64,000 nucleotides of DNA from Massilia atriviolacea. Lineage in GTDB: Bacteria > Pseudomonadota > Gammaproteobacteria > Burkholderiales > Burkholderiaceae_D. Within the stretch, counting starts at the first letter, position 1, and each line of letters opens with the position of its first letter. The notes under the pieces were generated by a model. The model was not told where the DNA came from, ran no database searches, and was given only the letters and a program-made list of their open reading frames with translations. The position numbers and the translations under genes were made by a program. The stretch is taken from positions 1-64,000 of the forward strand of contig NZ_RXLQ01000010.1 in the NCBI RefSeq assembly GCF_003953935.1, in the 5' to 3' direction. Below, piece by piece: positions 5,551 to 38,900 of this stretch.

Positions 5551-5611
5551 AGACACAACATTGAATGCGTGAGCCGCAGGCGGCCGGGCCCTGGCGTAGG
5601 GTTGCGGATCA

Positions 5612-5617
5612 ATTATA
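5612..5617 (-). promoter_or_regulatory. Candidate -10 element for argF
   Basis: Reading leftward the bases are TATAAT, about 60 bases before the argF start codon. A clear -35 hexamer at the right distance is missing, so the promoter may need an activator or may be weak. No ARG-box palindrome was recognised. Confidence 0.35.
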
Positions 5618-5731
5618 AGGGTTTTGAAAATTTGCCGGGGGCAACCACATACTATACCGCATGGCGCGCCCGGGCATCCGGAGGCGGGCGCGGCCCGCGC
5701 CGCTCGATGCGAAAACCGCGCTTTGCCTTGA

Positions 5732-6251: not shown

Positions 6252-6254
6252 TCC

Positions 6255-6476
6255 ATGAAGACCGGTTCCTACAAATTCTGGCGTGATGTGGCTGTGATCT
6301 GTGCCGTGGCCCTGCTCACATGTAGTGCCTTTTGGCTCTTGCTGCATACCTACTATCACGAGCGGATGCCGGAGCTTGTTCAAGACTGGGCACCAGTGTT
6401 CATATTTGTCGTCACCACCTGGTTCCTCATCGCGCATCGCCTAAAAAACCCTCCGCCAGAATCGGCCGATAGGTAA
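6255..6476 (+). CDS. Small two-helix membrane protein, possible orphan immunity protein
   Basis: A 73-residue protein with two predicted membrane helices (VAVICAVALLTCSAFWLLL and APVFIFVVTTWFLIA) and a short polar C-terminus. No family was recognised. It begins three bases after the broken upstream frame ends, so it was probably translationally coupled to it. Small membrane proteins directly after effector C-termini are often immunity proteins; that role here is inference. Lower GC than the flanking genes. Confidence 0.5.
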   Translation: MKTGSYKFWRDVAVICAVALLTCSAFWLLLHTYYHERMPELVQDWAPVFIFVVTTWFLIAHRLKNPPPESADR

Positions 6477-6599
6477 GCCGGCCACGCGTTTTCGGCCGGA
6501 TCTGCTTGCGTGATCTTGCTCGCAGTCCACTGCTACGGCATGTCCACATGAAGCAGGGCGACTCCCGAAGAGACGACGTTGGCAGTGTCGATCTCGACC

Positions 6600-6647
6600 G
6601 GCGGTGCATCGGCGTGCCCGGCGCGGCGGTGCATCGGCGTACCCGGC
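6600..6647. repeat. Two-copy 25-bp tandem repeat in a non-coding gap
   Basis: GGCGGTGCATCGGCGT begins at 6600 and again at 6625, with 23 bases shared apart from one mismatch. It lies in the 6477-6745 gap, which holds no convincing gene. A 12-bp palindrome CCGTGCGCACGG sits at 6723-6734 just beyond the kinase stop codon; it has no U-tract. Confidence 0.5.
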
Positions 6648-6745
6648 CCGCTACGCAAAAGCGAACCGACCAATAGCGATCCGTCCCGATCGCGTCACGC
6701 CTCCATCGCTGACATATATACGCCGTGCGCACGGTACCAAACGCC

Positions 6746-19639: not shown

Positions 19640-22600
19640 ATGGAAACCACACCAGCCCCGCACGACGATGCCAACCTGACGATCGCGCTGCCGCCCGACG
19701 GCGCCGCGCCGCAGGCAAGCGCCGTTCCGGCGGCTGCCGCCGAAGCCGCCCCCGACCGCGCCCAGTCCGAAATGCGCGCCATCCACGAAGCCATCGCCCG
19801 GGTCGAAGCCGAAGCCAAGGCCTCGTGCGCCGCCGAAAGCCGGGCCCATGCCGAAGCGCGCGCGCGCGGCCTGGCCGAAGAGCGCGCCGCCATGGACGCC
19901 GCCGCCGCTGCCGCCGCCCTGCAAAACGCGCAAGCCTCCGAAGAAGCCATCGAAGCCAACCGCGACCGCCTGGAAACCTTGCGCGCGGCCGCCCAGGCCA
20001 GCCTGGAACGCCTGGAAGCGGTGCGCCAGGAGACCGCCGAACTGCGCGCCCGGGTCGAAGCCGACACCCAGATCAAGCTGGCCGCCGAAACCCGCCTCAA
20101 GGCCGAGGAAGAAGCGCGCCGCCGCGCCGCCGAACAGATCGCCGCCGAAGCCGAGCTGGCCGAACAGGCGGCGCGCGCCACCGAAGCCCTGCTGGCCCAG
20201 ACCGAGCAGGCGCGTCTGCAAGCGGTCGAGCGGGTCGCCGCCGTGCACGCGGCCCAGGAAGAAGTGCTGCACATCGCCAACGCCGACGCCCGCATGACCA
20301 CCCTGGCTCGCGAACGCGAGCGCCAGGCCAAGGGCGCGCGCCAGACCGCCGAACTGCTGGCCGAAGCCGAAGCCGAGGCGCTGGAACTGACCGTCCAGCG
20401 CGAAAAAGCCGACCAGATCGCCCTCGACTCGGCCTTTGCCCGCGCCGTGGCCGAAGCGCGCGCGCTGGAAGAAGCGCGCGCCCTGGCCCACATCGAACAG
20501 GAACGCGAAGCGATCGCCATCGCCCAGGCCGAGTCCGAGCGCGTGGCGGCCCAGTCGGTGCACCTGCGCCTGCAATCCGAAAAAGAATTGCGCGACGCCG
20601 CCGCCCAGCGCGAGCGGCTGGAAAAGATGGCCGCCGCCGGCGCCGCCGCCCGGCGCGATGCCGAAGCGCGCATCCTGACCGCCACCGAAGAACGCATCGA
20701 AGTCGACAAGCGCCTGCGCGAAGTCGCCCTGGCGCGCGCCAGGGCCGAAGCCGACGCCAGCGCCGTCGTGCAAGCCAGGGTCGAGGCCGAAGCCCTGGCC
20801 GCCACGCAAGCGGCGGAACGCGCCCAGGCCGACCAGGCCGCCGCCGCCGCCGCCCTGGCCGACGCCGAAGAACAGCAACGTGCACGGGCCCTGGCCGAAG
20901 AACGCGCCAGCCTGGCCCAGGCCGCGGCCGACCTGGCCGCCGCCCAGAACGCCTCCGAACAGGCGGCCGTAGCCGCCATCGCCGAACAGGTCGACCTGCA
21001 GCGCCGCGCCAGCGAACTGGCCGCCGAGAAAGCGACGCAGGCGGCCGCGCTGGCGCAGGCCGAACAAGCCCGCGCCGAGGCCGAACAAGCCGCGCTGCTC
21101 AGCTTGCAGGAACGGCTGGATGCGGAAACCCGGGCCGCCGAGGTGGCCCAGGCGCGCGCCGACGCCGAACAGGCCGAAGCGGTGCTGCTGCGCCAGAAGG
21201 CCGATGCCGAACAGCGCCTGGCCGAAGCGAAGCGGACCGAAGTCGAGGCCCTGCGCGTGCTGGCCGAACAGGCCGACATCGAGAGCGCGCAGGCGCACGC
21301 CGCCGCCGAGGCCCTCGCCGCCCAGGCGCGCGCTGCCACCGCGCAGGCGCAGGCGCAAAGCGCGCGTGCCGACGCCGAACAGCAAGCCCTGGCCATGGCC
21401 GAACAGGCGCTGGCACTGGCCGAACAAGCCCTGGCCGATGAAGCCGCGCGCGCCGCGAGCGAGCGCAACGCCCTGGCGCTGGCCGAGCAGCACGCCGCCG
21501 AACAGCGTCAACTGGCCGAGCTGGCCGCCGCCACCGAGCAAGCCAAACGCAGCGAAGCGCAAGCCACGCGCCGCCTGGTGCAGCAAGCCGAAATCGAAAG
21601 CGTGCAGGCGCAGCAGGCCGCCGACGCCATCGCCGCCCAGGCCCGCGCCGCCATCGACCTGGCCCAGACCCAGAGCGCGCGCGCGGTCGCCGAACAGCAA
21701 AAGCTGGCCGTGGCCGAGCAAGCCCTGGCCGACGAACGCGCCCGCGCCGAGAGCGAAGCGGCGGCCCTGGCCCTGGCCGAACAGATGGCCGCCGACCAGC
21801 GCCAGATGGCGGTCGCCGCCGCCTACGCCGAGCAAGCCAGGCGGGCCGAAGCCGAGGCCGTGCGCGAGCGCGTGCAGCAGGCCGAAACCGAGAGCGTGCA
21901 GGCGCAGAGCGCGGCCGACGCCGCCAGCGCGCAGGCGCGCGTCGCCGCCGAACTGGCCGAAGCGCAGCGCGAGCGGGCCCGCTCCGAGCAGCAAAAACTG
22001 GCACTGGCCGAAGAAACGCTGGCGCAGGAACGGGCGCTGGCCGACAGCGAACGGGCCGCCGTCATGCTGGCCGAGCAGACCCTGGCCGCCAAGCGCCAGC
22101 AGGCCCTCGCCGCCAGCGGCGCCGAGCAGGCCCGCCGCACCGAAACCGAGGCCGCGCGCGTGCTGGCGCAGCAGGCCCAGGTCGAAACCGAACAGGCGGC
22201 GCGCGCCGCCGACGCCGTCGCCGCGCAGGCGCGCGTGGCCACCGAGCGGGCCCAGGTCCAGCAAGCGCGGGCCGAGGCCGAACAGCAAAAACGCACGCTG
22301 GCCGAGGAAGCGCTGGCCCTGGAGCGCGACAGCGCCGAAGCCGAGCGGGCCAGCCTCCAGACCGAGCGCGCCTCGCTGGCGCTGATCGAACAAAAGCTCG
22401 CGACCCAGCGCCAGCAGCTGGCGGCCGACCAGCGCGCCGAGCAGGCGATCGCGGCGCGGCTGGCATCCGAACAGGCGGCCTGCCTGTCGGCGCGCACGCG
22501 GGCCGAAGCCGAACACGAAGCGGCCAGCATGGCGCGCCAGTTCCAGGTCGCGCAAGAAATCGCCGCCCTGGCCGCGCAGGACAAGCGCGACGCCCAGCGC

Positions 22601-22861
22601 GTCCTGCTCGAAAGCGCCCAGGCGCAGGCCGACATGCAGCGCAAGAGCGCCCTGACCACCAAGGAAATGGCCGATGCGCGGCGCGAACTGGTGGCCCTCG
22701 AAGCGCGCCGCCTCGAAGCCGACACGCGCACCCTGATGGTCACGCGGCGCGCGATCGACGACGAAAAGCGCGAGAGCGCCACCGGCGCGGCCCAGCGCTC
22801 CACCTCCGCCACCATGACGCACCAGGTGCTCGGGCGCCTGACCGCGCCCAACAAGGGCTGA
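19640..22861 (+). CDS. Giant Ala/Glu-rich coiled-coil protein
   Basis: A 1073-residue protein made almost wholly of heptad-repeat helix (A, E, Q, R, L), predicted as one very long coiled coil from about residue 40 to 1050. No signal peptide, membrane segment or enzymatic domain is visible, so it is presumably a cytoplasmic filament or scaffold. Residues 530-935 contain four successive repeats of 105, 98, 98 and 105 residues (see the separate repeat entry), all multiples of seven. Coding sense is supported by strong codon-position bias toward G/C at third positions and by the start ATG at 19640 after GAGAACAAG. Bactofilin, MreB or IF-like motifs were not found. It stands alone between srkA and a solute-binding protein gene. 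Confidence 0.8.
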   Translation: METTPAPHDDANLTIALPPDGAAPQASAVPAAAAEAAPDRAQSEMRAIHEAIARVEAEAKASCAAESRAHAEARARGLAEERAAMDAAAAAAALQNAQASEEAIEANRDRLETLRAAAQASLERLEAVRQETAELRARVEADTQIKLAAETRLKAEEEARRRAAEQIAAEAELAEQAARATEALLAQTEQARLQAVERVAAVHAAQEEVLHIANADARMTTLARERERQAKGARQTAELLAEAEAEALELTVQREKADQIALDSAFARAVAEARALEEARALAHIEQEREAIAIAQAESERVAAQSVHLRLQSEKELRDAAAQRERLEKMAAAGAAARRDAEARILTATEERIEVDKRLREVALARARAEADASAVVQARVEAEALAATQAAERAQADQAAAAAALADAEEQQRARALAEERASLAQAAADLAAAQNASEQAAVAAIAEQVDLQRRASELAAEKATQAAALAQAEQARAEAEQAALLSLQERLDAETRAAEVAQARADAEQAEAVLLRQKADAEQRLAEAKRTEVEALRVLAEQADIESAQAHAAAEALAAQARAATAQAQAQSARADAEQQALAMAEQALALAEQALADEAARAASERNALALAEQHAAEQRQLAELAAATEQAKRSEAQATRRLVQQAEIESVQAQQAADAIAAQARAAIDLAQTQSARAVAEQQKLAVAEQALADERARAESEAAALALAEQMAADQRQMAVAAAYAEQARRAEAEAVRERVQQAETESVQAQSAADAASAQARVAAELAEAQRERARSEQQKLALAEETLAQERALADSERAAVMLAEQTLAAKRQQALAASGAEQARRTETEAARVLAQQAQVETEQAARAADAVAAQARVATERAQVQQARAEAEQQKRTLAEEALALERDSAEAERASLQTERASLALIEQKLATQRQQLAADQRAEQAIAARLASEQAACLSARTRAEAEHEAASMARQFQVAQEIAALAAQDKRDAQRVLLESAQAQADMQRKSALTTKEMADARRELVALEARRLEADTRTLMVTRRAIDDEKRESATGAAQRSTSATMTHQVLGRLTAPNKG
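21227..22444 (+). repeat. Four in-frame repeats of 98 or 105 codons inside the coiled-coil gene
   Basis: Units start at 21227, 21542, 21836 and 22130. Each opens with A(K/R)R(T/S/A)E, has a central AAQAR or SAQAR block, then EQQKL, and ends in AEQ or TEQ. Lengths are 105, 98, 98 and 105 residues, or 15, 14, 14 and 15 heptads. Units 2 and 3 are the most alike. Confidence 0.85.
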
Positions 22862-22934: not shown

Positions 22935-23654
22935 ATGACGATTTCCAAGCTGTTGCTGTCGATGTTGCTACCGATCCCGCTGGGCTTGCAGGCGGCCGAA
23001 CTATCCGTGCTGGTCGACACCAGTACCGACATGCCGATGGCGCGCTTCGAGCGCGGCCGGCTGGCCGAAGGCATCCACAAGGACATCGGCCAGGCGCTGG
23101 CGGCGGCCATGGGCCGCACGGCCGTGTTCGTCGCGCTGCCGCGCAAGCGGATCGTGCGCGCGCTGGAAGACGGCGGCGCGGACGTACTGTGCAGCTACGT
23201 GCCCGAATGGCTGAACGGCGCGTTCGGCTGGAGCCAGCCATTCATTCCCATTACCGAAGTGCTGATCACGGCGCGCAATGTGACGCGGCCGCGGAGTGTG
23301 GCCGACGTGTCGGGGCAAGCGATCGGCACGGTGCTGGGCTACTCCCATCCCGAGCTCGACGAGATGCTGGGCAAGGGCTTCATCCGCGACGACAGCGCCA
23401 GTTCGCTGATCAACCTGCGCAAGCTGGCGGTGGGGCGGGTGAGGCACGTGGTCACGGCCAGGGTATTTCTCGACTACCGGCAAAAGCTGGGCGACCCGGT
23501 GCTGGTGCTGCACCCGCCGCTGCCGGTCAAGAGCTACATGGGCCAATGCGCCGTCTCGCCGAAGGGCAAGGTCAAGCTGGCCGAGGTCGACAAAGCCATC
23601 CGCCGCCTGATCGCCGACGACGCCGTCGCCACCATCTTCGCCCGCTACCAATAA
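22935..23654 (+). CDS. Periplasmic solute-binding protein (SBP_bac_3-like)
   Basis: A 239-residue secreted protein: signal peptide (MTISKLLLSMLLPIPLGLQA, cleavage near AA-EL) followed by an extracellular solute-binding protein fold of family 3 (VLVDTSTDMPMARF, then HKDIGQALAAAMG, ADVLCSYVPEW, VLGYSHPELDEML). Such proteins bind amino acids or other small ligands, and many without an ABC partner act as sensors. No permease or ATPase is adjacent, so transport versus sensing is unresolved. ATG 22935 lies 17 bases after a GAGG box. Confidence 0.82.
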   Translation: MTISKLLLSMLLPIPLGLQAAELSVLVDTSTDMPMARFERGRLAEGIHKDIGQALAAAMGRTAVFVALPRKRIVRALEDGGADVLCSYVPEWLNGAFGWSQPFIPITEVLITARNVTRPRSVADVSGQAIGTVLGYSHPELDEMLGKGFIRDDSASSLINLRKLAVGRVRHVVTARVFLDYRQKLGDPVLVLHPPLPVKSYMGQCAVSPKGKVKLAEVDKAIRRLIADDAVATIFARYQ

Positions 23655-23665
23655 CTGCGCGCTCC

Positions 23666-23935
23666 AACCGGGGTCAGAGCTTTGGGTCAGAGCTTTGACT
23701 GGCAACACGTATTCGTTTGCTTTCCTTTTTGAACCGGGGTCAGAGCTTTAATTCGAAACATTGTTAAGCAAGCTGAGCAAAAGAATGATCGGATTGTCGA
23801 CTGTTGGCAGACGATTGCCTTCGAAAGTGGATTTAACGCGTTTTTTGATTTTCGGGGTTTGCAAAGTTTCGAGTCAGAGCTCTGACCCCGGTTGAGAAAC
23901 GAACATTGTTGCTAGTCAGAGCTCTGACCCCGGTT
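23666..23935. repeat. REP-like inverted array between the solute-binding and deacetylase-caspase genes
   Basis: The 23655-24027 gap is AT-richer than its surroundings and holds four copies of one element. AACCGGGGTCAGAGCT occurs directly at 23666 and 23732, and its reverse complement ends copies at 23873-23893 and 23915-23935, where the full unit contains the palindrome GTCAGAGCTCTGAC. Copy 1 is followed at once by a second near-palindrome (23686-23699). The layout resembles REP/BIME clusters mobilised by RAYT transposases; no RAYT gene is present here. No gene was recognised in the 125 bases between the two pairs. Confidence 0.75.
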
Positions 23936-24027
23936 GTAGGGTTGTTGAACGGCGGGGTGTGGGAATTTGGTGGGGCTTGGACATTTGCAATACAATCGAC
24001 GGACTTCTTCCAACAGGTGTGTCTGTC

Positions 24028-26769
24028 GTGACTTCCACTCCCATTAAAATCGCCGCCGCGCTTGCCATCGCGGGCGCGGCCGGGGCGAGCTTGCTGTTTG
24101 CCGCACGTAAGCCGGCGCCGACGCCGCCGCCACCGGCTCCCGCCAACACAGCCGCCACCCCCGCAGCGCGCGTCGATACAGCGCCGCTGATGACGGGCAT
24201 GCAGGCCTTGCTGGCCAATTACCGCAAGATCATCGTGCTGCTCGCCGACGAGAAAGCCATGCCCGCCAACGAGCGCGAACAGGCCCAGCGTATCGGCCAG
24301 AACCTGTTCCACGAGAACCAGACCCGCACCGACGCGCTGGAACGCGAGCTCGCCGCGCTGCTGGCGTCAACCCAGCCCACCCGCTTCGATGCCATCGGCA
24401 GCCTGCTCGGCTACATCGAGTCCGATAAATCCCTGTTCGACGCCGACCGCCTGGCCTTCCGCGAGCTGTTGCAAGGCTTGCTGGCCGAGGTGGCCAAGGA
24501 TTCGAGCTTGCCGGCCATTAAGATCCACAAGCGCCTGTCCGAGGACCTCGATGCCCTGGCCGAGATCGAACGCAATTATGAGAAGGAAATCCGGCAAGTC
24601 TTCGGCCGCTACGAGTCGCGCGCGATCGAGCTCAAACGCGAGCGCTGGGACAGCTACCTGGCCCACCTCCAGACCCTTTACACGCGCGAGGCCATCCTGA
24701 AAGAGCAGGGCGTGGTCATGCCGTATCCGGCCTCGGCCCTGCCTCCCGAGGCGAAGAGGGTGGAGCCCGATCCGAACGAAATCTTCGGCAATTCCCTGCC
24801 CAGGAAAACCGTGGTGCTGACCTTCGACGACGGCCCGCACAAGCGCTACAGCGAGGAAATCGCGGCCATCCTCAAGCAGTACGGGGTGCCGGCGGTGTTC
24901 TTCAACGTCGGCCGCAACCTGGGCAGCGTCGATGCCGCCGGCAAGCCCACCTTGTCCGATGGCGCGGCGGTCAGCCGCAAGCTCAAGGCGGGCGGCTACA
25001 CGCTGGCCAACCACAGCTACACGCACGCCCAGCTGTCGAAGGAAACCGGCGACAGGCTCAAGGCCGAAATCCTCAACACCGATGTGCTGCTCAAGGCCAT
25101 CGACGCGGGCCGCTCGCCGCTGTTCCGCTTTCCCTACGGCGCGCGCAACAGCGAGGGCCTGCACGCGCTCGAGGGCGCCCATCTGCGCTCGGTGATGTGG
25201 AATATCGATTCGCTCGACTGGGCCGATCCGGTCCCGGCCTCGATCGCCGAACGGGTCCTGCGCACGGTCGACAAGGAGGGCCGCGGCATCATCCTGTTCC
25301 ACGATATCCACGCGCGCACGGTCAAGGCGCTGCCCGCCGTGCTCGACCGCCTGATCGCCGAGGGCTATCAGTTCGCCGGCTGGGATGGCAGCAATTTCAC
25401 CAGCGCCAATACGGCCAGTACGGCCAACACGGCCGCCGCGCCCGCCGGGAAAGTGGCGGTGAGCACCGGTTACGCCAATTCCTGGGCCATCGTGATCGGG
25501 ATCGACAGCTATCCCAAGTGGCCCAAGCTGCAGTACGCGGTGCGCGATGCCCAGGGCGTGCGCGAAACGCTGATCGGCAAGTTCGGCTTCGCGGCCGAGC
25601 GCGTGGTCTCGCTCAACAATGCCGACGCCACCCGCGCCGGCATCCTCGGCGCCTTCCACGACCGCCTGGCGCACGGCGGGGTGCAGAAGAACGACCGCAT
25701 CTTCGTGTTCTTCGCCGGCCATGGCGCGACCCGCCAGCTCAGTTCGGGCCGCGACCTCGGCTACATCGTGCCCTACGATTCCGACCCGGCCCAGTTCGCC
25801 ACCGATGCGATTCCCATGAGCGAGATCCAGAATATCGCCGAAAGCCTGAGCGCCAAGCATGCGCTGTTCGTGATGGATGCCTGTTACAGCGGCCTGGGCC
25901 TGACGCGCGGCGGCGGCGCCGGCGCCTTCTTGCGCGATAACGCGCGCCGCATCGGACGCCAGATGCTGACCGCCGGCGGGGCCGACCAGCTGGTGTCGGA
26001 CGGCGGGCCGAACGGGCATTCGGTGTTCACCTGGACCTTGCTGCAGGGCCTGGCGGGGAAGGGCGACCTGAATGGCGACGGCCTGATCACGGCCACCGAA
26101 CTGGCGGCCTACGTGGCGCCGGCGGTGGCGGGCGTGTCGAACCAGACCCCGGCCTTCGGCAGCCTGCCGGGCTCGGAAGGGGGCGACTTCGTGTTCGAAC
26201 TGCCGGTCGAGGCGGAGTTCCTCAATCCCCAGACCGCGCAGCTGTCGAGCGAGGCGATCGCGCTCAACGCCAAGCTCGACGCGGCGCGCCCGGACGCGCC
26301 CAGGGCGGACGACAAGCCGGGTGCCGCGCCGACGGTGGCGCCGGTCGCGGTCAGGGATTTGCAGGGCAAGGAGCAGAAGCTGGTGACGCCGCTGGCGGTG
26401 CCGTCCTCGGCGCGCCAGCTGGCCCAGCGCGCCAACGACCGCGGCTTGCAGCTGTTCAGGGAAAAGCAGTATGCGGCGGCCGAGGCCGAGTTCACCGAGG
26501 CCCTCAAACTGCGCGCCGACTTTGCGCTGGCGGCCAATAACCTGGGTTTCGTGTATTACAAGCAGGGCAAGTTCGCCGAGGCGGCGCGCTGGTTCGACAA
26601 TACCGTGAAGATGGACCCGTCGCGCGCGGTGGCGTACCGCAACCTGGGCGACGCCCATCTGCAGGCGGGCGACGCGGCCAAGGCCAAACTCGCCTACAAG
26701 ACCTTCATGGAACTGGCGCCGGCCAGCGCCGGCGCGGCGTATGTGAAGCAGCAGCTGGAGAAACTCTAG
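24028..26769 (+). CDS. Polysaccharide deacetylase-caspase-TPR fusion protein
   Basis: A 913-residue protein, numbered from GTG 24028 (GTG 24019 or an upstream start at 23959 are possible). An N-terminal membrane anchor (about 6-25) is followed by a Pro/Ala linker and a helical region. Residues about 260-450 are a NodB-type polysaccharide deacetylase: TFDDGPH (D267/D268), HSYTH (H329, H333), RFPYGARN (367) and HDIH (425). Residues about 485-740 are a C14 caspase-like domain with the catalytic His565 in FFAGHGA and Cys619 in MDACYSG, and an EF-hand-like DLNGDG loop starting at 680. The C-terminus (about 795-905) has TPRs. Both catalytic sets are intact. The protein is likely envelope-anchored with domains outside the cytoplasm. 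No close relative is known to me; role unproven. Confidence 0.85.
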   Translation: MTSTPIKIAAALAIAGAAGASLLFAARKPAPTPPPPAPANTAATPAARVDTAPLMTGMQALLANYRKIIVLLADEKAMPANEREQAQRIGQNLFHENQTRTDALERELAALLASTQPTRFDAIGSLLGYIESDKSLFDADRLAFRELLQGLLAEVAKDSSLPAIKIHKRLSEDLDALAEIERNYEKEIRQVFGRYESRAIELKRERWDSYLAHLQTLYTREAILKEQGVVMPYPASALPPEAKRVEPDPNEIFGNSLPRKTVVLTFDDGPHKRYSEEIAAILKQYGVPAVFFNVGRNLGSVDAAGKPTLSDGAAVSRKLKAGGYTLANHSYTHAQLSKETGDRLKAEILNTDVLLKAIDAGRSPLFRFPYGARNSEGLHALEGAHLRSVMWNIDSLDWADPVPASIAERVLRTVDKEGRGIILFHDIHARTVKALPAVLDRLIAEGYQFAGWDGSNFTSANTASTANTAAAPAGKVAVSTGYANSWAIVIGIDSYPKWPKLQYAVRDAQGVRETLIGKFGFAAERVVSLNNADATRAGILGAFHDRLAHGGVQKNDRIFVFFAGHGATRQLSSGRDLGYIVPYDSDPAQFATDAIPMSEIQNIAESLSAKHALFVMDACYSGLGLTRGGGAGAFLRDNARRIGRQMLTAGGADQLVSDGGPNGHSVFTWTLLQGLAGKGDLNGDGLITATELAAYVAPAVAGVSNQTPAFGSLPGSEGGDFVFELPVEAEFLNPQTAQLSSEAIALNAKLDAARPDAPRADDKPGAAPTVAPVAVRDLQGKEQKLVTPLAVPSSARQLAQRANDRGLQLFREKQYAAAEAEFTEALKLRADFALAANNLGFVYYKQGKFAEAARWFDNTVKMDPSRAVAYRNLGDAHLQAGDAAKAKLAYKTFMELAPASAGAAYVKQQLEKL

Positions 26770-26780
26770 ACCGCCGGCCG

Positions 26781-26815
26781 CGCCCGCCGCGCCGCAGCAA
26801 GGGCGGCGGCGGGCG
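26781..26815. terminator. GC-only hairpin between convergent genes
   Basis: CGCCCGCCGC (26781-26790) pairs with 26806-26815 around a 15-base loop in the 52-base gap between the deacetylase-caspase gene and the DUF475 gene. No T-run on either strand, so termination is plausible but not certain. Confidence 0.35.
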
Positions 26816-26821
26816 GCGCCA

Positions 26822-27862
26822 TCACGCCACCCCCAGCGCCTCCTGCCGCTTCTTGTACCGCAGCGAGGACCACAGCGACACCAGGATGAAGGCCACGCCC
26901 GAGAGCCCCGTGAACCACTCCGGAATGTGATAGCGCACGCTGGCGAACATGATGACGGCCAGGATCCCGATCGCGTAATGCGCGCCGTGTTCCAGGTACA
27001 CGAACTCCTGCAAGGTGCCCTTGTCGACCAGGTAGACCGTCATCGAACGCACGAACATGGCGCCGATGGCCAGGCCCAGCATGATGATGACGACGTCGCT
27101 GGTGATCGCGAACGCGCCGATCACGCCGTCGAAACTGAAGGAGGCGTCGAGCACTTCCAGGTACAGGAAACCGCCGATACTGCCGCGCGACACCATCTGC
27201 CCCAGGGTGGGGTCGGCTTCCTCTTCTTCCAGCAGGGTGCTGATCCAGTTCACCCCCACGTAAATCACCACGCCCAATACGCCGGCCATCAGCACGCTCA
27301 GCTTGCGCGCTTCGGGCACCAGGTACATGGCCATGAAGGCCGCGCACAGGGTCAGCATGACCGACAGGCTCTCGCTGCCGTATTTGCCCACCTTTTCTTC
27401 GAGCAGGCCGAGCCAGTGCAGTTCCTTCTCTTCGTCGAACAAGAAGTTGAGGAATACCAGCAGCAGGAAGGCGCCGCCGAAGGCCGCCACTTCGGCGTGG
27501 TTCTCGGTCAGGTGGCGCGAGTATTCGTCGGGCGTGTTGATCGCCATGGTCCAGACATCGAGCAAGCCGAGCCCGGTGGCGACCGAGACAATGACCAGCG
27601 GGAACACCAGGCGCATGCCGAACACCGCCACCAGGATCCCGACCGTCAGGAACAGCTTGCGCCAGAACGCGTTCCAGTGGCGCAGCACGGAGGCGTTGAC
27701 CACCGCGTTGTCGAAGGAGAGCGACACTTCCAGCACGCCCAGCACGGCGGAAATCCACAGCGCGGTGAGCATGCCGGGAATGCCGCCGCGCGAATAGCCC
27801 CACCAGGCGGCGACGCACATGAGGATGAAGGTGACGAGGAAGGAGAGTCTGAAATGGCGCAT
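26822..27862 (-). CDS. DUF475/TerC-superfamily integral membrane protein
   Basis: A 346-residue multi-helix membrane protein. The signature SLSFDNAVVNASVL near the N-terminus and its internal echo DASFSFDGVIGAFAIT match the TerC/YkoY/DUF475 two-repeat architecture with conserved membrane Asp/Asn residues. Relatives are linked to tellurite resistance and metal (Mn) homeostasis, which is family knowledge only. ATG 27862; RBS (CTAGGGAAT) is weak. Convergent with the caspase-like gene and upstream of nothing else on its strand. Confidence 0.88.
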   Translation of the reverse strand: MRHFRLSFLVTFILMCVAAWWGYSRGGIPGMLTALWISAVLGVLEVSLSFDNAVVNASVLRHWNAFWRKLFLTVGILVAVFGMRLVFPLVIVSVATGLGLLDVWTMAINTPDEYSRHLTENHAEVAAFGGAFLLLVFLNFLFDEEKELHWLGLLEEKVGKYGSESLSVMLTLCAAFMAMYLVPEARKLSVLMAGVLGVVIYVGVNWISTLLEEEEADPTLGQMVSRGSIGGFLYLEVLDASFSFDGVIGAFAITSDVVIIMLGLAIGAMFVRSMTVYLVDKGTLQEFVYLEHGAHYAIGILAVIMFASVRYHIPEWFTGLSGVAFILVSLWSSLRYKKRQEALGVA

Positions 27863-29143: not shown

Positions 29144-29665
29144 ATGTTTCGAACTGTTTTGACCCGCGCCGCTACCGTCGCCATCCTGGCCGCCGTCAGC
29201 ATTCCTGTCGCCACCAGCGCGGCCACGTATTCGAACGGCAGCAACACCTCGACCTTCGACGTGACGATGACGGTGGTGGCTAACTGTATCGTTGCCGCCA
29301 CGCCGCTCGACTTCGGCCAGGCCCAGGGCGTGCTGGCCACCAAGGTGTCGGTCAACAGCAGCATCAACGTTACCTGCAGCAATACCACGCCGTATAACGT
29401 GGGCTTGAATGCGGGCAGCGGCGCCGGTTCGTCCGGCACCAACCGCTTCCTCTCCGGTACCGGCGGCAATGCGGCGACCGTGCGCTTCAACCTGTTCCAG
29501 GCGGCCGGCAGCACCCCGTGGGGCGATACCCAGGGCACCAATACCCTGGGCGGCACCGGTACCGGCAGCGCCCAGGCCCTGACCGTCTACGGCGAAGTGC
29601 CGGCCCAGGCCACGCCGGCGCCGGATACCTATAAATCGACCATCACGGCCACGGTCTACTTCTGA
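29144..29665 (+). CDS. Csu-type major pilin (spore coat U domain)
   Basis: A 173-residue secreted protein with a signal peptide (MFRTVLTRAATVAILAAVSI to ATSAA) and one SCPU domain: VTMTVVANCIVAATPLDFG near the N-terminus, the second Cys in INVTCSNTTPYNVGLNAG and the terminal strand TYKSTITATVYF. This is the family of the CsuA/B pilin, assembled by donor-strand exchange through the chaperone-usher encoded next. An ideal GGGAGG site precedes ATG 29144. First gene of a four-gene operon. Confidence 0.92.
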   Translation: MFRTVLTRAATVAILAAVSIPVATSAATYSNGSNTSTFDVTMTVVANCIVAATPLDFGQAQGVLATKVSVNSSINVTCSNTTPYNVGLNAGSGAGSSGTNRFLSGTGGNAATVRFNLFQAAGSTPWGDTQGTNTLGGTGTGSAQALTVYGEVPAQATPAPDTYKSTITATVYF

Positions 29666-29672
29666 CAAGGTA

Positions 29673-30398
29673 ATGAGCGCGCGCCTGACGAGCTGTTTTT
29701 TCTTCCTGATCCTGCTGGCAAGCTGCCTGGGCAGCGTGGCGCGCGCGGCCAACCTGCAGATTTCGCCGGTCACCCTGCGCCTGCGCGCCGACCAGGGCGC
29801 GGCCGGGATCGAGCTGCAAAACCTGGGCCAGGCGCCGATCTACGGCCAGGTGCGGGTGTATGTGTGGGACCAGCAGGGGGGCGAGGACGTGCTGACCCCG
29901 ACCCAGCAACTGGTGGCCAGCCCGCCGATCGTGCAGATCGCCGCGCGCGCGGCCCAGACCATCCGCCTGGTGCGCACCGGCGCGGCCGCGCCCGGCGCCG
30001 AACTGAGTTACCGCGTGCTGATCGACGAGCTGGCGCGCGACGACGGCCCGGCCAGCACCGGGGTCGATATCCGCCTGCGCTATTCGGTGCCGGTGTTCGT
30101 GCTGCCCGGCGCGCCCGGCAGCGAGGCCTTGACCTGGCGCGTGTCCAAAAAAGAGGGCGGCTGGTCCTTGCGCGTCGATAACCGCGGCGCCCGCCATGCC
30201 CAGATCGGGGCGCTGACCCTGTCCACGCCCGGCGGCGCCCAGTTCGTGGTCAGCAAGGGCCTGTTCGGCTATGTGCTGGCCGGGCGCTGGCGCGAGTGGC
30301 GCTTGCCGATCACGCCGCCGGCCGACCTGTCCGGCGCGCTGGCCGTCAGCGCCGTCATCAACGCCAAGCCGGTCCAGGCCAGTGCGCAGGGGGACTAG
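29673..30398 (+). CDS. csuC: Csu-type periplasmic pilus chaperone
   Basis: A 241-residue secreted, PapD-like chaperone. After the signal peptide (about 1-25) there are two Ig-like domains: LQISPVTLRLRADQGAAGIE and the conserved QTIRLVRTG segment in the first, and VDNRGARHAQIG followed by a second beta sandwich. It should hold pilin subunits in the periplasm and donate a strand before export through the usher. Starts seven bases after the pilin stop with AAGGT as RBS. Its C-terminal codons overlap the predicted usher start. Confidence 0.9.
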   Translation: MSARLTSCFFFLILLASCLGSVARAANLQISPVTLRLRADQGAAGIELQNLGQAPIYGQVRVYVWDQQGGEDVLTPTQQLVASPPIVQIAARAAQTIRLVRTGAAAPGAELSYRVLIDELARDDGPASTGVDIRLRYSVPVFVLPGAPGSEALTWRVSKKEGGWSLRVDNRGARHAQIGALTLSTPGGAQFVVSKGLFGYVLAGRWREWRLPITPPADLSGALAVSAVINAKPVQASAQGD

Positions 30399-32691
30399 GC
30401 GATGCGGCGCCTGCCTCTTGCTGGCGCTGCTGGCGCTGGCCTGCGCGCCCGCCTCGGCCCAGGCGCCGGCGCCTGAAACCCTGTACCTGGAGGTACGCAT
30501 GAATACCCTGGCAACCGGTCTGATCGTGCGTTTTAACAACAGCTCCGCCGGCCTGAGCGCGAGCGCGGCCAGCTTGCGCGAACTGGGCATTGCGCTCGAT
30601 CCGCTGGCCATGCCGGGCGAGCAGGAAGTCTTGCTCGATGCCATCCCCGGCCTGCGCTACGAGTACGATGTCGCCGCCCAGCGCATCAGCCTGCAGGTGG
30701 CGGACGCGCTGCGCGCCCCGTTCAAGCTCGATGCGCGCTCCCCGGCCCCAAGCGACGGCGTCGGCGGCGGCAGCGGCGCCGTTCTCAACTACGATGCGCT
30801 GGTGCAGACCGGCGCCACGCGCGCCGTCCTGGCCGCCAACGAGCTGCGCTACTTCAACGATGCCGGGGTGTTCAGTTCCAGCGGCCTGGCCAGCATCGAG
30901 CGCGGCAAGAGCCGCTACCTGCGCTACAACACCTCCTGGAGCACGGCCGACCCGCTGACCCTGCGCGCCTTCCAGGCCGGCGACCTGATTTCCTCGTCCC
31001 TCCCGTGGAGCCGCTCGGTGCGCCTGGGCGGGGTTCAGTGGCGCCGCAATTTCGCCCTGCAGCCGGAGCTGACCACGTTTCCGGTGGCGTCCCTGCGCGG
31101 CTCGGCGCTGGTGCCGTCGGCGCTGAACCTGTATGTCAACGGCGTACAACAGTTAAGTTCGGCGGTGCCGGCCGGTCCGTTCGAGGTGAACCAGGTGGCC
31201 GGCATCAGCGGCGCCGGCGAGGCGCGCATCGTCACCCGCGACGCGCTCGGGCGCGAAGAACTGAAGGTGGTCTCGCTGTATGTGGACACGCGCCTGCTGG
31301 CGCCCGGCCTGTTCGATTACTCGGCCGAGGCCGGCGTGCTGCGGCGCGACTTCGGCACCCGCTCCTTCGGCTACGCCTCGCAGCCGGTGGCCAGCGCCTC
31401 GGTCCGCTACGGCCTGAGCCCGCTGATCACGCTGGAGGGGCATGGCGAGGCGGCCGCCGGCCTGCTCAACGGCGGGGCCGGCGTCCTCGCCAGCCTGGAC
31501 GGGCGCGGCGTGCTCAGCGCGACGCTGGCCGCCAGCGCCGGGCGTTCGCGGGGAGGACTGGCCGCGCTCGGCTACCAGTACCTGGGGCGCGGCGCCGGGG
31601 TCGATCTGTACAGCATGCGCGCCAGCCCGGGCTATGCCGACCTGGCCTCGCGCGACGGCAGCGTGATTACCCGCAGCATCGACCGGGTGGCGCTCAGCGC
31701 GGCCCTGTTCGGCGGCCAGAGCGTGGGCCTGAGCTATGTCGGCTACAAGAGCAGCGCGGCCGCGGCCCATATCGCCAGCCTGTCCTGGGGCGCGACCCTG
31801 GGCCAGCGCGTCTTTATCAGCGCCAGCGCCTTCCAGGACCTGCGCCAGCGCGCCAGCCGCGGGGTCTACCTGAATGTGTCGTTCGCCTTCGGCAACCGTA
31901 CCTCGGCCAGCGCCGGGGGAGGGCGCCAGAACGGGATCGCCCGGCGCGCTGTTCAACTGTTGCGCAGCCCGCCGCTGGACGGCGGCCTGGGCTGGGACTT
32001 GCAGCACAGCCAGACCGGCGCGGGCGCGCTCGGCCAGGGGCAGCTGCAGTATCTGGGCTCGTACGGGCGCATCGGCGCGCTGGCCCAGGTCAGCGAAGGC
32101 AAGCGCGCCACCTCGCTCGACGCTTCCGGCGCGGTGGTGCTGATGGACGGCGCGCTGGCCGCCACGCGCCAGGTCGGCAGCGGTTTTGCGCTGGTCTCGA
32201 CCGGCGGCGTGGCCGGGGTGCCGGTGATCCACGAAAACCGCCGCATCGGCGTGACCGACAGCGGCGGCCACCTCCTGGTGCCGAACCTGAACGCCTACGG
32301 CAGCAACCGGGTCGCCATCGATATCGCCGAACTGGCGGCCGACGCGCGCGTGGCGACCACAAGCATGAATGTGGTGCCGCGCCAGTTGTCGGGGGTATTG
32401 GCGCGCTTTCCGGTGGAGCGCTACCGCGCCGCCAGCGTGCTGCTGCGCGGCGCCGACGGCGCGCCGCTGGCGGCCGGCACCCCGCTGCGCCACCGCGAAA
32501 GCGGGCTGGAAACGATTGTCGGCCACGACGGCATCGCCTTCGTCGACAACCTGGGGCAGGACAATACGCTCGACGTGGGGCAGGGCGAGACGGCGTGCAG
32601 CGTGACGTTTCGCTATGTGCGGGCCGACGCCGGGACCTTGCCCACCATCGGCCCCTTGCGCTGCGCGCCGGCTGGCGCGGGGGCGCGATGA
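30382..32691 (+). CDS. csuD: Csu-type outer membrane usher
   Basis: A 769-residue outer membrane protein that should assemble and secrete the pilus. A signal peptide (cleavage near ASA-QA) is followed by an N-terminal chaperone-binding domain, a large FimD/PapC-like beta barrel (RYFNDAGVFSSSGLASIERG, YVNGVQQLSS) and C-terminal plug and Ig-like segments. I chose GTG 30382, because in that frame it gives a textbook signal peptide (VRRGTRRCGACLLLALLALA) overlapping the chaperone stop by 17 bases; the nearby ATG 30402 is out of frame and would need a frameshift. Most GC-rich repeats here are just compositional bias. Confidence 0.87.
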   Translation: MRRGTRRCGACLLLALLALACAPASAQAPAPETLYLEVRMNTLATGLIVRFNNSSAGLSASAASLRELGIALDPLAMPGEQEVLLDAIPGLRYEYDVAAQRISLQVADALRAPFKLDARSPAPSDGVGGGSGAVLNYDALVQTGATRAVLAANELRYFNDAGVFSSSGLASIERGKSRYLRYNTSWSTADPLTLRAFQAGDLISSSLPWSRSVRLGGVQWRRNFALQPELTTFPVASLRGSALVPSALNLYVNGVQQLSSAVPAGPFEVNQVAGISGAGEARIVTRDALGREELKVVSLYVDTRLLAPGLFDYSAEAGVLRRDFGTRSFGYASQPVASASVRYGLSPLITLEGHGEAAAGLLNGGAGVLASLDGRGVLSATLAASAGRSRGGLAALGYQYLGRGAGVDLYSMRASPGYADLASRDGSVITRSIDRVALSAALFGGQSVGLSYVGYKSSAAAAHIASLSWGATLGQRVFISASAFQDLRQRASRGVYLNVSFAFGNRTSASAGGGRQNGIARRAVQLLRSPPLDGGLGWDLQHSQTGAGALGQGQLQYLGSYGRIGALAQVSEGKRATSLDASGAVVLMDGALAATRQVGSGFALVSTGGVAGVPVIHENRRIGVTDSGGHLLVPNLNAYGSNRVAIDIAELAADARVATTSMNVVPRQLSGVLARFPVERYRAASVLLRGADGAPLAAGTPLRHRESGLETIVGHDGIAFVDNLGQDNTLDVGQGETACSVTFRYVRADAGTLPTIGPLRCAPAGAGAR

Positions 32692-33704
32692 GGGCCGGGC
32701 GCGCCTTGGCCAGCCTGGCGCTGCTCGCCTGCCTGCTGTGGGCCGGCCAGGCGCGCGCCGACACCTGCAGCGTGACCATGTCGGACGTGGTGTTTGCCGG
32801 GGTCAGCCCGATTTCGCCGGCCGACGCCTATGCCAGCGCCAGCGGCAACGTGAAATGCACCTGGAACCTGCTCACGCCGCTGCCGCCCTACATCCTGCTG
32901 CTGCCCAAGGTGCTGGTCTGCATTAACATCGGGATCGGCACCAATGCGACAAGCGCCAGCCCGCGCACCCTGGGCAACGGCGCCAACCGCCTCGAATACA
33001 ATCTGTACCGCGACGCCACTTATTCGCCGGCCTCGGTGGCCGGCGGCAGCGCAATCGCCGGGACCAGCCCGATCGCCATGGTGCTGATTTCGCCCAACCT
33101 GCTGATCGGCGGCACGCTCAACGCGCCGTTCACCCTGTTCGGCAAGATTCCGGCCGGTCCCGCCCTGCGCGCCGTGAAAACCGTTGGCAATTCGGACACT
33201 GTATACAGCTCCAGCTTCGCCGCCGCGGCCAACATCACCTATACCTTCTTCAACCTGGTGACCCCGGCCTGCGGCGGCGGGGCGTCGGCCAGTTTTCCGT
33301 TCAACGTGCAGGCGACCGTGGTAAATAATTGCAATATCAGCACCGCGCCCCTGCATTTCGGTTCGGGCAGCTTCCTGGCCGGCCCGGTGCGGGCCCAGGG
33401 CAGCCTGTCGGTCCAGTGTGTGAACAACAACGCTTTCCAGATCGCCCTGAACGGCGGCAGCGTGGCCGGCGCGGTCGGCGCGCGCCAGATGCGCCGGGTG
33501 GGCGGCAGCGAGCGCATCAATTATCAGTTGTCGGGATCGCTCGACGGGCCGCTGTGGGGCGATGGCACCCTGGGCACGAGCATGTTGTCCGGAACGGGAA
33601 CGGGAGAGGTGGTGCCGATGATACTGTACGGGCGCGTTCCCGTGCAGGCATCGCCGCGGCCGGGCGACTACAGCGACACGGTGACGGCGACGGTGGTGTT
33701 CTGA
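32688..33704 (+). CDS. csuE: Csu-type pilus tip adhesin with two SCPU domains
   Basis: A 338-residue secreted protein with a signal peptide (MRAGRALASLALLACLLWAG to ARA) and two spore coat U domains: the first begins DTCSVTMSDVVFAGVSP, the second PFNVQATVVNNCNIST; each has its Cys pair, and the C-terminus ends YSDTVTATVVF. In Acinetobacter the two-domain CsuE sits at the pilus tip and mediates attachment. ATG 32688 overlaps the usher stop by four bases (ATGA). Last gene of the operon. Confidence 0.88.
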   Translation: MRAGRALASLALLACLLWAGQARADTCSVTMSDVVFAGVSPISPADAYASASGNVKCTWNLLTPLPPYILLLPKVLVCINIGIGTNATSASPRTLGNGANRLEYNLYRDATYSPASVAGGSAIAGTSPIAMVLISPNLLIGGTLNAPFTLFGKIPAGPALRAVKTVGNSDTVYSSSFAAAANITYTFFNLVTPACGGGASASFPFNVQATVVNNCNISTAPLHFGSGSFLAGPVRAQGSLSVQCVNNNAFQIALNGGSVAGAVGARQMRRVGGSERINYQLSGSLDGPLWGDGTLGTSMLSGTGTGEVVPMILYGRVPVQASPRPGDYSDTVTATVVF

Positions 33705-34847: not shown

Positions 34848-35984
34848 ATGCTGCGCAAAACACTGCTCGTCCTCGCTATCGCCACGGCGCTTTCCGCCTG
34901 CGGCAAAGGCGAGAAAGATCCCGCCAAGGACGGCAAGGACGCCAAACCGGTCCAGCTGCTGGTGGCTCCGGAAGACCTGCTCACCATCCAAAGCAATGCA
35001 CTCGCCTCCGGACCGGTCGTCACCGGCTCGGTCCAGCCCGAACGCAAGGCTGACCTGCGCGCCGAAGTCTCGGCCGTGGTCTTGCAGGTGCTCAAGGAAA
35101 ACGGCGACCTGGTGCAGCGCGGCGACATCCTGGTCAAGCTCGACGAAACCGCCATCCGCGACAGCCTCAGCTCGGCCGACCAGACGGCCCGCGCCGCCGC
35201 CCAGGCGCTCGACCAGGCCGAACGCCAGCTCGAACGCATGAAAACCCTGCGCGCCTCGGGCATGACCTCGGCCCAGGCCATGGACGACGCCGAAGTGCGG
35301 CGCAACAATGCGGTGAGCGAAGTGTCGGCCGCCAAGTCGCGCGCCGCGCTGGCGCGCCAGCAACTGGCCCGCACCGTGGTGCGCGCGCCCTTCGACGGCG
35401 TGGTCAGCGAACGCAAGGTCTCGGCCGGCGACACCGCTTCCATCGGCAAGGAATTGCTGAAAGTGATCGATCCGACCAGCATGCGTTTCGAAGGCCGCGT
35501 CTCGGCCGACCGCATCAGCGCGGTCAAGGTCGGCCAGCCGGTCAGCTTTCGCATCAACGGCTATGCCGGCGAGGAATTTCGCGGCGTCGTGAAGCGGGTC
35601 GACCCGGCCGCCAACGAAGTCACGCGCCAGGTCGAGGTGCTGGTCGCCTTTGCGCCGGGCTCGGCGGTGCCGAAAGTGTCCGGCCTGTACGGGGAAGGGC
35701 GCATCGAGGCCGAAACCAAGGCCGCGCTGATGCTGCCCGAAGGCGCGCTGGTCAAGGCCGGCGACAAATCGTATGCCTGGCGCCTGAAGGACATGACCCT
35801 CGGCAAGGTGGACCTGGCGATCGGCCCGCGCGACACCCGCACCGGCAACTATGAAGTCAAGCAGGGCCTGGCCGCCGGCGACATCGTCATGCGCAACCCG
35901 AGCTCCTCCTTCAAGGAAGGCCAGAAAGTCCAGATGGCGCCGGCCAAGGTCGCCGCCGCCGCGCCGGCCGTGCAGGGGAAATAA
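34848..35984 (+). CDS. RND efflux periplasmic adaptor (membrane fusion lipoprotein)
   Basis: A 378-residue lipoprotein with lipobox LSAC (Cys after residue 17). The adaptor fold follows: a lipoyl/barrel-sandwich half motif around SGPVVTGSVQPERKADLRAEV, a coiled-coil hairpin (SSADQTARAAAQALDQAERQ to ARTVVRAPFDGVVSERKV), and beta-barrel and membrane-proximal domains. It should bridge the inner membrane RND pump, encoded next, and an outer membrane channel not present here. GGAG seven bases upstream supports ATG 34848 over the in-frame 34830. Two genes separated by three bases. Confidence 0.92.
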   Translation: MLRKTLLVLAIATALSACGKGEKDPAKDGKDAKPVQLLVAPEDLLTIQSNALASGPVVTGSVQPERKADLRAEVSAVVLQVLKENGDLVQRGDILVKLDETAIRDSLSSADQTARAAAQALDQAERQLERMKTLRASGMTSAQAMDDAEVRRNNAVSEVSAAKSRAALARQQLARTVVRAPFDGVVSERKVSAGDTASIGKELLKVIDPTSMRFEGRVSADRISAVKVGQPVSFRINGYAGEEFRGVVKRVDPAANEVTRQVEVLVAFAPGSAVPKVSGLYGEGRIEAETKAALMLPEGALVKAGDKSYAWRLKDMTLGKVDLAIGPRDTRTGNYEVKQGLAAGDIVMRNPSSSFKEGQKVQMAPAKVAAAAPAVQGK

Positions 35985-35987
35985 GCC

Positions 35988-38900
35988 ATGTTCCTTTCCG
36001 ATTTCAGTATCAAGCGGCCGATCGCGACGATCGTCCTGATCCTGGCCCTGATGTGCATGGGCCTGATCGCGCTGACCAAGCTGCGCGTCAACCAGAATCC
36101 CGACGTCGAAGTGCCGGTCTTGCAGATCAATATTCCGTATCCTGGCGCGTCGCCCGACACGGTCGAGCGGGAAGTGATCAACCGTATCGAAAAGTCCCTG
36201 CTCAGCATCTCCGGCGTGACCGACGTGCACGCCAATGCCAACGAAGGCAATGCCCAGTTCTGGCTGGAGTTTAACTTCGACAAGAACCTGATCGAAGCCT
36301 CCGACGAGGTGCGCAACGCCATCGCCACGGTGCGCTACAAGCTGCCGACGGAAATGCGCGAACCGATCCTGCAGCGCCTCGACCCGGCCACCCAGCCGAT
36401 CCTGAACCTGGCGCTGTCCTCCACCAGCCAGACGCATGCGGACATCTCGCGCCTGGCCGAGGACGTGCTGGCCGACCGCTTCCGCGGCATCGACGGCGTT
36501 GCCACCGTCAGCGTCAACGGCGCCCTGCGGCGCGAACTGTCGGTCTTGCTGCGCGCCGAAAAGCTGCGTGAATACAATGTGGCCGTCTCCGACGTGGTCA
36601 ACGCCTTGCGCACGCAAAACACCAATGCGCCGGTGGGCAAGATTCGCGGCGAGCTCGACGAAAAAAGCATCCGCCTGGTGGGCCGCATCGAGTCGCCCGA
36701 TGAGTTCCAGCAGATCGTGGTCAAGCGGCGCGGCGAGGAAGTCGTGCGCCTGGCGCAGGTGGCCGAGATCCAGGACGGCTTTGCCGAAGTCAATAACCTG
36801 AGTATCCGCAGCGCCAAACCGAACGTGGGCATCACCCTGACCCGTTCGCGCGACGCCAGCACCGTCAGCGTCGCCCAGCGGGCCAAGAAGCTGATCAAGG
36901 AACTCGAAAAAGAACTGCCGAAAGGCACCAAGCTGGAAGTCACGCGCGACGGCGGCGAAGAAGCGCAGAGCAGCCTGAACAATGTGATCGAATCGCTGGT
37001 GTTCGGCGCCGTGCTGACCATTTTCGTGGTGTATGCCTTCCTCAATTCCTGGCGCTCGACCCTGATCACGGCGCTGTCCCTGCCGACCTCGGTGATCGCT
37101 TCCTTTATCGCGGTGTGGCTGTGCGGTTTCACGCTCAACTTCATGACCCTGCTCGGGCTGTCGCTGGCGATCGGCGTGCTGATCGACGATGCGATCGTGG
37201 TGCGCGAAAACATCGTGCGCCACATGCAGCGCGGTTCCGACCGCCGCAAGGCCGCCCTCGAAGGCACGGCCGAAATCGGCATGGCGGTGGCCTCGACCAC
37301 CTTCTCGATCATCGCCGTGTTCATTCCGGTGGCCTTCATGCCGGGCGTTTCCGGTGAATGGTTCCGTCCGTTCGCCCTGACGGTGACCTGCTCGGTGCTG
37401 GTCAGCCTGGTCATTTCCTTCACGCTCGATCCGATGCTGTCGGCCTACTGGGGCGATCCGCCGGATCACCACACGGCGCCGAAAAAAGGCTTGTCGCTGG
37501 TGCTGCACCACTTTAACGAGTGGTTCGACCGCCAGGCCGACCGCTACGGCCATGTGATCGCCTGGGCCTTGCATCACCGCATCTGGATGACCCTGATCGC
37601 CGTGGCCACCTTCGTCGGTGCGCTGGCGCTGCAGGCGACAAAAGGCGGCACCGATTTCCTGCCGAAGGCGGACTACGGCCAGTTGCTGATCGATGTGCGC
37701 ACGCCGGCCTCGTCGAGCGTCGAGTATTCGCGCGCCAAGCTGGAACGGGCGGCCGAACTGGCGCGCTCGATCAAGGAAACCAAGGATACCAACAGCTTCA
37801 TCAACACTGGCGGCGGCAAGGTGTATGTCGATATCGGCAAACGTGGAACGCGCTCGCGCAGCGCCAAGGAAATCGCCGTCGAGTTGCGCAGCAAGGTGTC
37901 GCAACTGGTCGGCGCCGAATACGTGGTGCTGGACGACATGAACAACGGCGCCAACAAGCCGGTCCAGATCCAGTTCAGCGGACCGGATTCGCGCAAGCTG
38001 CTCGAAATCGCCACCGCCTACATGGATAAGCTGCGCCTGGTGCCGGGCGCGATCGACGTCGGCCTGTCCGAACAGGATCCGAAGAACGAATTGCAGATCG
38101 AACTCAATCGCGGCCTGGCCAATTCGATGGGGATTTCCGTCAACGATGCCGCGCAATCGCTGCGGGTGGCGTTTGCCGGAGTCGAGGTGGGCGACTGGGT
38201 CGATCCGACCGGCGAGACGCGCGACGTGGCGGTGCGCCTGCATCCGGACGACCGGGTCAGCGCCGACAATATCGAACGCCTGCCGATCGCCGTGACCGGC
38301 ACCAACCAGATGGTGCCGCTCGACCAGATCGCCACCATTACCATGGGCAAGGGGCCATCGGCGATTTCTCACAAAAATGGCAAGCGCATCATTTCGGTGT
38401 CGGCCAATGCGCAGGGGCGCTCGACCGGCGAAGTCACGGCCGACGCCATGAAACTGGCAGATACCTTCGACTACCCGCCCGGCTATGCCCGCGAACTGGG
38501 CGGCGCCGGCCAGGACCAGAACGAACTGTTCACGGAGATGGGCATCGCGCTGGTGTCCGGCATCGGCCTGATGTACCTGATCCTGGTGATGCAGTTCGGT
38601 TCCTTCACGGCGCCGCTGGCGGTGATGCTGTCGCTGCCCTTGTCGCTGATCGGCGTGGTGGTGGCGCTCCTGATCACCAATAACACGCTCAACCTGATGA
38701 GCTTCATCGGCATCATCATGCTGATGGGACTGGTGGCGAAGAATGCCATCCTGCTGCTGGACGCGGCGCGGGCGCGCGAGCGCGAAGGCCACAGCCGCGA
38801 GGATGCGCTGATGGATGCGGGGCGCGCGCGTCTGCGTCCGATCCTGATGACCACCTTCGCGCTGATCGCCGGCATGTTCCCGGTCGCGCTGGGGCTGGGC

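Follow-up and report, generated by a model that had tools for sequence, protein, structure and literature searches.

A Massilia deacetylase-caspase-TPR fusion is by architecture a betaproteobacterial member of the Xanthomonas-type metacaspase group

A published architecture and its counterpart in Massilia

The deacetylase-caspase-TPR combination has been in print since 2012, when Asplund-Samuelsson et al. reported that proteins with the order PF01522 - metacaspase - TPR form a conserved type, the 'Xanthomonas-type metacaspase' (PMC3501461, section on this type). The hosts named in that section are Xanthomonas, Xylella, Stenotrophomonas and two Acidobacteria. It counts 17 proteins with PF01522 and a metacaspase domain, all with an intact dyad and some without TPRs, and gives a mass of 97-100 kDa for Xanthomonas. 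The gene adjoins trmE (mnmE), with yidC and rnpA nearby, in three gammaproteobacterial genera, a setting that the section does not make a requirement. For the orthocaspases, Asp substrates are described as inappropriate; they are stated to act without Ca2+, and one of them processes itself (PMC5756287, in the part on their activity). An EF-hand motif has been reported for 7 archaeal orthocaspases, and Asp95 and Asp211 of the metacaspase TbMC2 accommodate basic substrate residues (PMC6426788, in the parts on these proteins).

In a window of 64,000 nucleotides from Massilia atriviolacea (the whole stretch of DNA analysed here), we found an intact open reading frame for a fusion protein of 913 aa and 98.0 kDa (Table 1). 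Its presumed start is GTG 24028, and the same frame is open from GTG 23959. A Pfam search detected PF01522 (Polysacc_deac_1) at residues 256-383 (E 1.2e-24), PF00656 (Peptidase_C14) at 486-701 (E 5.9e-17) and several TPR models with their best stretches within 809-911. PF01522, PF00656, TPR_1 and TPR_2 exceeded their own Pfam cut-offs, which bears out the NodB, C14 and TPR domains proposed in an earlier note on this DNA, and the N-terminal anchor claimed there is present as a hydrophobic segment. None of the NCBIfam deacetylase cut-offs was reached, and we count this against the reading preferred below. The fusion is the sole match to Peptidase_C14 at E<=0.001 in its genome, where PF01522 gave eight matched stretches. 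A scan of 23600-26900 for promoters and terminators returned 0 and 0.

Table 1. Features of the Massilia fusion gene, in positions of the window
Feature	Position	Strand	Remarks
Whole gene, deacetylase-caspase-TPR fusion, 913 aa	24028..26769	+	presumed start GTG 24028, stop TAG
N-terminal hydrophobic anchor, aa 8-26	24049..24105	+	lipobox-like signal instead in L127, L128, L129
Helical region, aa 55-245	24190..24762	+	32 invariant residues of 196 (aa 55-250)
NodB / CE4 deacetylase domain, aa 251-455	24778..25392	+	CE4 motif residues invariant
Caspase-like C14 domain, aa 482-735	25471..26232	+	H565, C619, Asp507, Asp617 invariant; Asp507 and Asp617 putatively in the S1 pocket
Flexible loop after catalytic Cys, aa 624-633	25897..25926	+	invariant Arg627; candidate self-cleavage site
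EF-hand-like loop DLNGDGLITATE, aa 680-691	26065..26100	+	between two predicted helices; candidate Ca2+ site
C-terminal TPR domain, aa 796-913	26413..26766	+	Pfam, structure model

By architecture, dyad and mass, the Massilia fusion is a betaproteobacterial member of the published Xanthomonas-type group. It has the domains given for that type (PF01522, metacaspase and one to three TPRs, with PF00656 used for the paper's metacaspase profile) in the same order, together with the Cys-His dyad, and its mass falls within the published 97-100 kDa. The earlier note knew of no described system with this exact architecture; since architecture, dyad and mass agree with the section in PMC3501461, that claim was wrong. 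The Massilia fusion sits in a betaproteobacterium, whereas the section names Gammaproteobacteria and Acidobacteria. In the open-licence literature, PMC3501461 was the only paper found to describe the fusion, and no biochemistry on it was found beyond the Xanthomonas work which that paper recounts. Betaproteobacterial metacaspases have been reported from the Baltic Sea in a paper whose main text does not contain the word 'deacetylase' (PMC4933709). What is added here to the published record is the wide betaproteobacterial range of the fusion, the lipobox-like swaps of its anchor, the acidic S1 pocket as predicted by alignment, the EF-hand-like loop, the Arg that never varies in the flexible loop of the caspase, strong purifying selection and the lack of a partner gene common to different genera.

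Gene neighbourhood, distribution and conservation

The Massilia gene appears solitary. On its upstream side, a solute-binding-protein gene (PF00497, E 1.6e-6) ends at 23654; on its downstream side, a DUF475/TerC gene (26822-27862) is convergent with it, and the rnpA-yidC-mnmE setting of the Xanthomonas type is absent. Among the loci listed, only L037-L040 and L042, all from Massilia, have the same immediate neighbours. Within six genes of the fusion, no gene cluster was common to more than 17 of 81 loci (80 plus the Massilia locus, some cut by contig ends, with genes called by an ad hoc finder), and a conserved partner gene across genera was rejected on this count.

The tie to the 17 published proteins runs through two loci, L127 and L128, and the published gene order. 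The published setting recurs in L128, where yidC and mnmE flank the fusion directly and rnpA lies on the far side of yidC; Pfam and NCBIfam both identify the three genes. In L127, a yidC-like and an mnmE-like gene are arranged around the fusion as in L128, no rnpA was called, and the flanking genes have N-termini near-identical to those of L128. Both genomes belong to another family of the same class as the Massilia genome and are called Xanthomonas-like here because of their gene order. Their fusions are 62% identical to the Massilia fusion, and an unrooted FastTree tree of 38 sequences places them within the betaproteobacterial copies; horizontal transfer of the fusion is suggested, and only suggested, by this placement. 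The operon setting is incidental to the Xanthomonas-type metacaspase, not defining.

Several other features were seen around the gene. The REP-like repeat CCGGGGTCAGAGCT occurs in four copies, two per strand, at 23668-23933 just upstream of the fusion gene and in 113 copies genome-wide (56 forward and 57 reverse; 0 for the reversed-pattern control), often in facing pairs among the places listed. An Ala/Glu-rich protein of 1073 aa, probably coiled-coil, is encoded at 19640-22861 (+); neither Pfam nor NCBIfam gave a match to it at E<=1e-5. A chaperone-usher cluster (two spore-coat-U-type proteins, a PapD-like chaperone and an usher), then a HlyD-type and an AcrB-type gene, occupy 29144-33704 (+) and 34848-39221 (+).

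The fusion has a wide range in the Betaproteobacteria and is found as one protein. The best match covers over 840 residues in a single frame in all 109 loci tested (L008-L116; 29 from family genomes and 80 named relatives, overlapping in genomes), a sample of best-scoring relatives that favours full-length copies. A frameshift or assembly error joining the domains, which the earlier note had named as a refutation of its reading, is ruled out by these full-length copies. The named loci (best 80 of 152) include Massilia, Janthinobacterium, Polaromonas, Rhodoferax, Undibacterium, Duganella, Rugamonas, Thiobacillus, Gallionella and Methylophilaceae, and several are metagenome-assembled genomes. 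The closest named relatives, at 91-93% identity, are from Massilia.

In the family set, 58 of 245 genomes match the fusion at E<=1e-40, own genome included, and 53 of those 58 carry the fused protein by count from the match table. Three of the 53 copies (G008, G010 and G043) have internal stops, that of G010 matching residues 194-911 only, and in G231 the fusion is present in pieces. These stop-bearing or fragmented copies, which include L136 (G008) 5207-7444, G231:C1:966820-969425 and G043:C4:125993-128677, indicate decay or sequencing error in some relatives. Four genomes of one genus, g42 (G042, G069, G121 and G134), match at about 31-473 only, that is, the helical region and the deacetylase; the N-terminal half thus occurs on its own as well. 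Deacetylase-half proteins without the caspase, 36-40% identical, were seen in L134 4830-6062 (G042), G069, G107, G121 and G134; G107 has both such a helical and deacetylase protein and the fusion. Peptidase_C14 overall was detected in 96 of 240 family genomes, the fusion and other proteins pooled.

Among 398 genomes drawn from the phylum, nine match the deacetylase-caspase part at E<=1e-30, own genome included. Five of the nine show an uninterrupted match across nearly the whole query at 57-68%, one (G312) a match split in two pieces, and two (G502 and G365) match in the caspase part alone. Caspase relatives without a deacetylase match were found in L124 (1483-3222) and L125 (1354-2934); the EF-hand-like loop is retained in L125 and degenerate in L124.

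Conservation was read from an alignment of 90 sequences (the Massilia fusion and 89 distinct relatives). The residues D267, D268, H329, H333, H565 and C619 stand at the positions given to them in the earlier note and are invariant in all 90, the caspase His and Cys on which that note had staked its reading included; R367, D397, W398 and H425 are likewise invariant, as are D507, D617 and R627. The caspase region (482-735) has 116 of 254 positions invariant, so single invariant residues there say little. Over 38 sequences, mean identity is highest in the caspase (0.78), followed by the TPRs (0.73), CE4 (0.72) and the helical region (0.58). Against seven relatives, dN/dS ranged from 0.037 to 0.175 for the caspase, 0.016 to 0.175 for the TPRs, 0.055 to 0.218 for CE4, 0.14 to 0.35 for the helical region and 0.07 to 0.77 for the linkers, with the lowest value in the caspase in four of the seven comparisons and in the TPRs in three. 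The fusion is under strong purifying selection. Pairwise distances of CE4 and caspase correlate (r 0.85), against 0.76-0.84 for the other domain pairs tested, values that stand without a null distribution.

Cellular place, predicted folds and the readings they favour

Our best reading, to which we give a probability of a little under 60%, is that of a glycan deacetylase that is anchored in the envelope and joined to a self-cleaving protease specific for Arg/Lys. It keeps the envelope modifier of the earlier note, which the architecture and the intact active sites still favour, and drops the novelty of that architecture.

Most of the 38 sequences have one N-terminal hydrophobic segment and none equally strong elsewhere. 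Charge bias favours an N-inside orientation in 26 of the 38, with sequence starts set by the alignment. The Massilia anchor itself has a charge of +1 before and +2 after the segment, which leaves N-inside unsupported and counts against our best reading. In L127 and L128, the hydrophobic segment ends in a lipobox-like LVVAGC at the place where the Massilia fusion has its membrane anchor. L129, which begins with MAIAALAAGLAAC, has a lipobox-like LAAC, its start being uncertain and taken from the ad hoc gene finder. A lipid anchor replacing the membrane helix in relatives would place the rest of the protein outside the cytoplasm, and this swap makes it most likely that the enzyme domains face the periplasm.

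The CE4 part found its best PDB sequence match in SpPgdA, a peptidoglycan deacetylase (E 2.1e-27). In the full-length model, it matched Bc1960 (4l1g, Z 23.5), PgdA (2c1i, 22.5) and Bdellovibrio Bd3279 (5jp6, 22.4). It has the fold of these CE4 deacetylases and their motif residues, including the Asp-His-His metal triad, and differs from them in additionally bearing a protease and TPRs. The acetylxylan esterase 7fbw scores as well as the peptidoglycan deacetylases (Z 23.0, with differences under 1 treated as ties), which counts against our best reading; chitin deacetylases match at Z 20-22. These similar scores of non-peptidoglycan enzymes agree with a rival reading as an enzyme of extracellular polymers, in which CE4 would deacetylate an exopolysaccharide and the protease trim proteins at the cell surface, for example while a biofilm matrix matures. 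Exopolysaccharide systems such as PgaA/PgaB combine a TPR with a CE4 protein, and by analogy the CE4 domain and TPRs of the fusion may point the same way. Two observations argue against such a role, which we regard as unlikely: by sequence, the closest PDB entry is a peptidoglycan deacetylase, and no neighbour gene is common to more than 17 of the 81 loci.

The helical region gave two weak PDB sequence matches only, 3lg7 (E 0.0012), a designed scaffold, and 2pyx (E 0.98). With a pTM of 0.36, the full-length model gives the domain arrangement without confidence, and no caspase was among its best 50 matches; the caspase domain was therefore folded alone (pLDDT 81.9, pTM 0.84). This model matched Arabidopsis metacaspase 4 (Z 23.3, rmsd 2.7, 216 aligned), MALT1 (Z about 20-22) and caspases (about 19.5-21). 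A profile of 32 caspase domains matches PDB metacaspases (4f6o, yeast, E 1.7e-8), and in this search D507 and D617 align with the Asp of 'ND' and the Asp of 'FDSCHSG' in 4f6o. By sequence, the two residues would correspond to Asp95 and Asp211 of TbMC2, so Arg or Lys is expected at P1 and not Asp; the acidic S1 pocket, placed by alignment and not by geometry, predicts cleavage after Arg or Lys. The caspase fold, the His-Cys dyad and the two S1-aligned Asp are common to the Massilia protein and the orthocaspases and metacaspases of MEROPS C14. Unlike these, the Massilia caspase sits behind a deacetylase, is predicted to be periplasmic and has an EF-hand-like loop in its C-terminal half.

Two loops of the caspase are candidate sites, one for self-cleavage and one for Ca2+. 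In the isolated model, the loop after C619 with R627 inside it is the only internal stretch under pLDDT 50; in the full-length model, the caspase stretches under this value are 572-575, 627-653, 706-721 and 727-747. A cut after R627 would yield products of 68 and 30 kDa, as computed. The EF-hand-like loop is carried by a helix-loop-helix (666-678 / 679-688 / 689-703) of the isolated model. Its pattern occurs once in the Massilia fusion, is kept in 83 of the 90 sequences and absent from seven, and has a background of 5 in 950 neighbouring proteins and 3 in 2000 shuffles. The Ca2+-independence described for orthocaspases in PMC5756287 counts against a Ca2+ switch in the fusion.

The suicide role suggested in the earlier note was already raised in PMC3501461 through Xanthomonas cell-death work. 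In a cell-death executioner, stress would trigger the protease to kill the cell, with the deacetylase contributing by weakening the wall. As recounted in that paper, the Xanthomonas homologue is linked to cell death in X. campestris pv. glycines, a caspase-specific substrate and antibodies were used, and a 55-kDa enzyme was reported; caspase-deficient mutants did not undergo cell death, a result in favour of such a role. The generic caspase model of PADLOC, which matches the caspase part of the fusion at E 4.6e-17, agrees with such a role. The invariant D507 and D617, however, predict Arg/Lys and not the Asp specificity of caspase assays, so the fusion would fit the caspase-specific substrate poorly, and Asp substrates are inappropriate for orthocaspases by the account in PMC5756287. 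The products predicted from a cut at R627 do not match the 55 kDa recounted for the Xanthomonas enzyme, a mismatch that counts against our best reading. Execution of cell death is also disfavoured by the lack of a neighbour common to more than 17 of the 81 loci and by the L128 copy lying among housekeeping genes; purifying selection does not discriminate for or against it. We consider it improbable. An anti-phage effector, the caspase arm of a defence system, has only the generic caspase match of PADLOC in its favour and is highly improbable, as no defence family was detected among the Massilia-locus neighbours run through Pfam or NCBIfam, no neighbour is common across genera and the L128 neighbours are housekeeping genes.

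Proposed mechanism and what it would mean

For the envelope-anchored deacetylase with a self-cleaving protease, we infer a mechanism from sequence and models, starting from what was observed (a conserved fusion under purifying selection, with intact active sites and with folds as predicted). The anchor would hold the protein in the envelope with both enzyme domains on the periplasmic side. The CE4 domain would N-deacetylate a GlcNAc-type polymer, with peptidoglycan the likeliest substrate. The caspase domain, which has the fold and dyad of an active metacaspase or orthocaspase, would cut after Arg or Lys and probably cut itself first, in the loop at Arg627. Control by Ca2+ may act through the EF-hand-like loop, and the TPRs may bring substrate or partner proteins.

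More tentative, and in our judgement rather doubtful, is a periplasmic two-enzyme switch, in which an envelope signal or Ca2+ influx would lead the Arg/Lys-specific caspase to cut its own loop and the linkers and thereby release the peptidoglycan deacetylase or switch it irreversibly. Conserved cut sites in the linkers were not found in the 90 sequences, linker 1 having no invariant residue and linker 2 seven of 60, none of them Arg or Lys. If this is true, Gram-negative bacteria would have a wall modifier gated by proteolysis, and the caspase signal published for Xanthomonas would not have been the fusion enzyme's own specificity. With both active sites conserved across many Betaproteobacteria, a periplasmic place implied and cleavage after Arg/Lys predicted, a loosely argued candidate for 'bacterial apoptosis' becomes a protein that can be tested sharply and cheaply.
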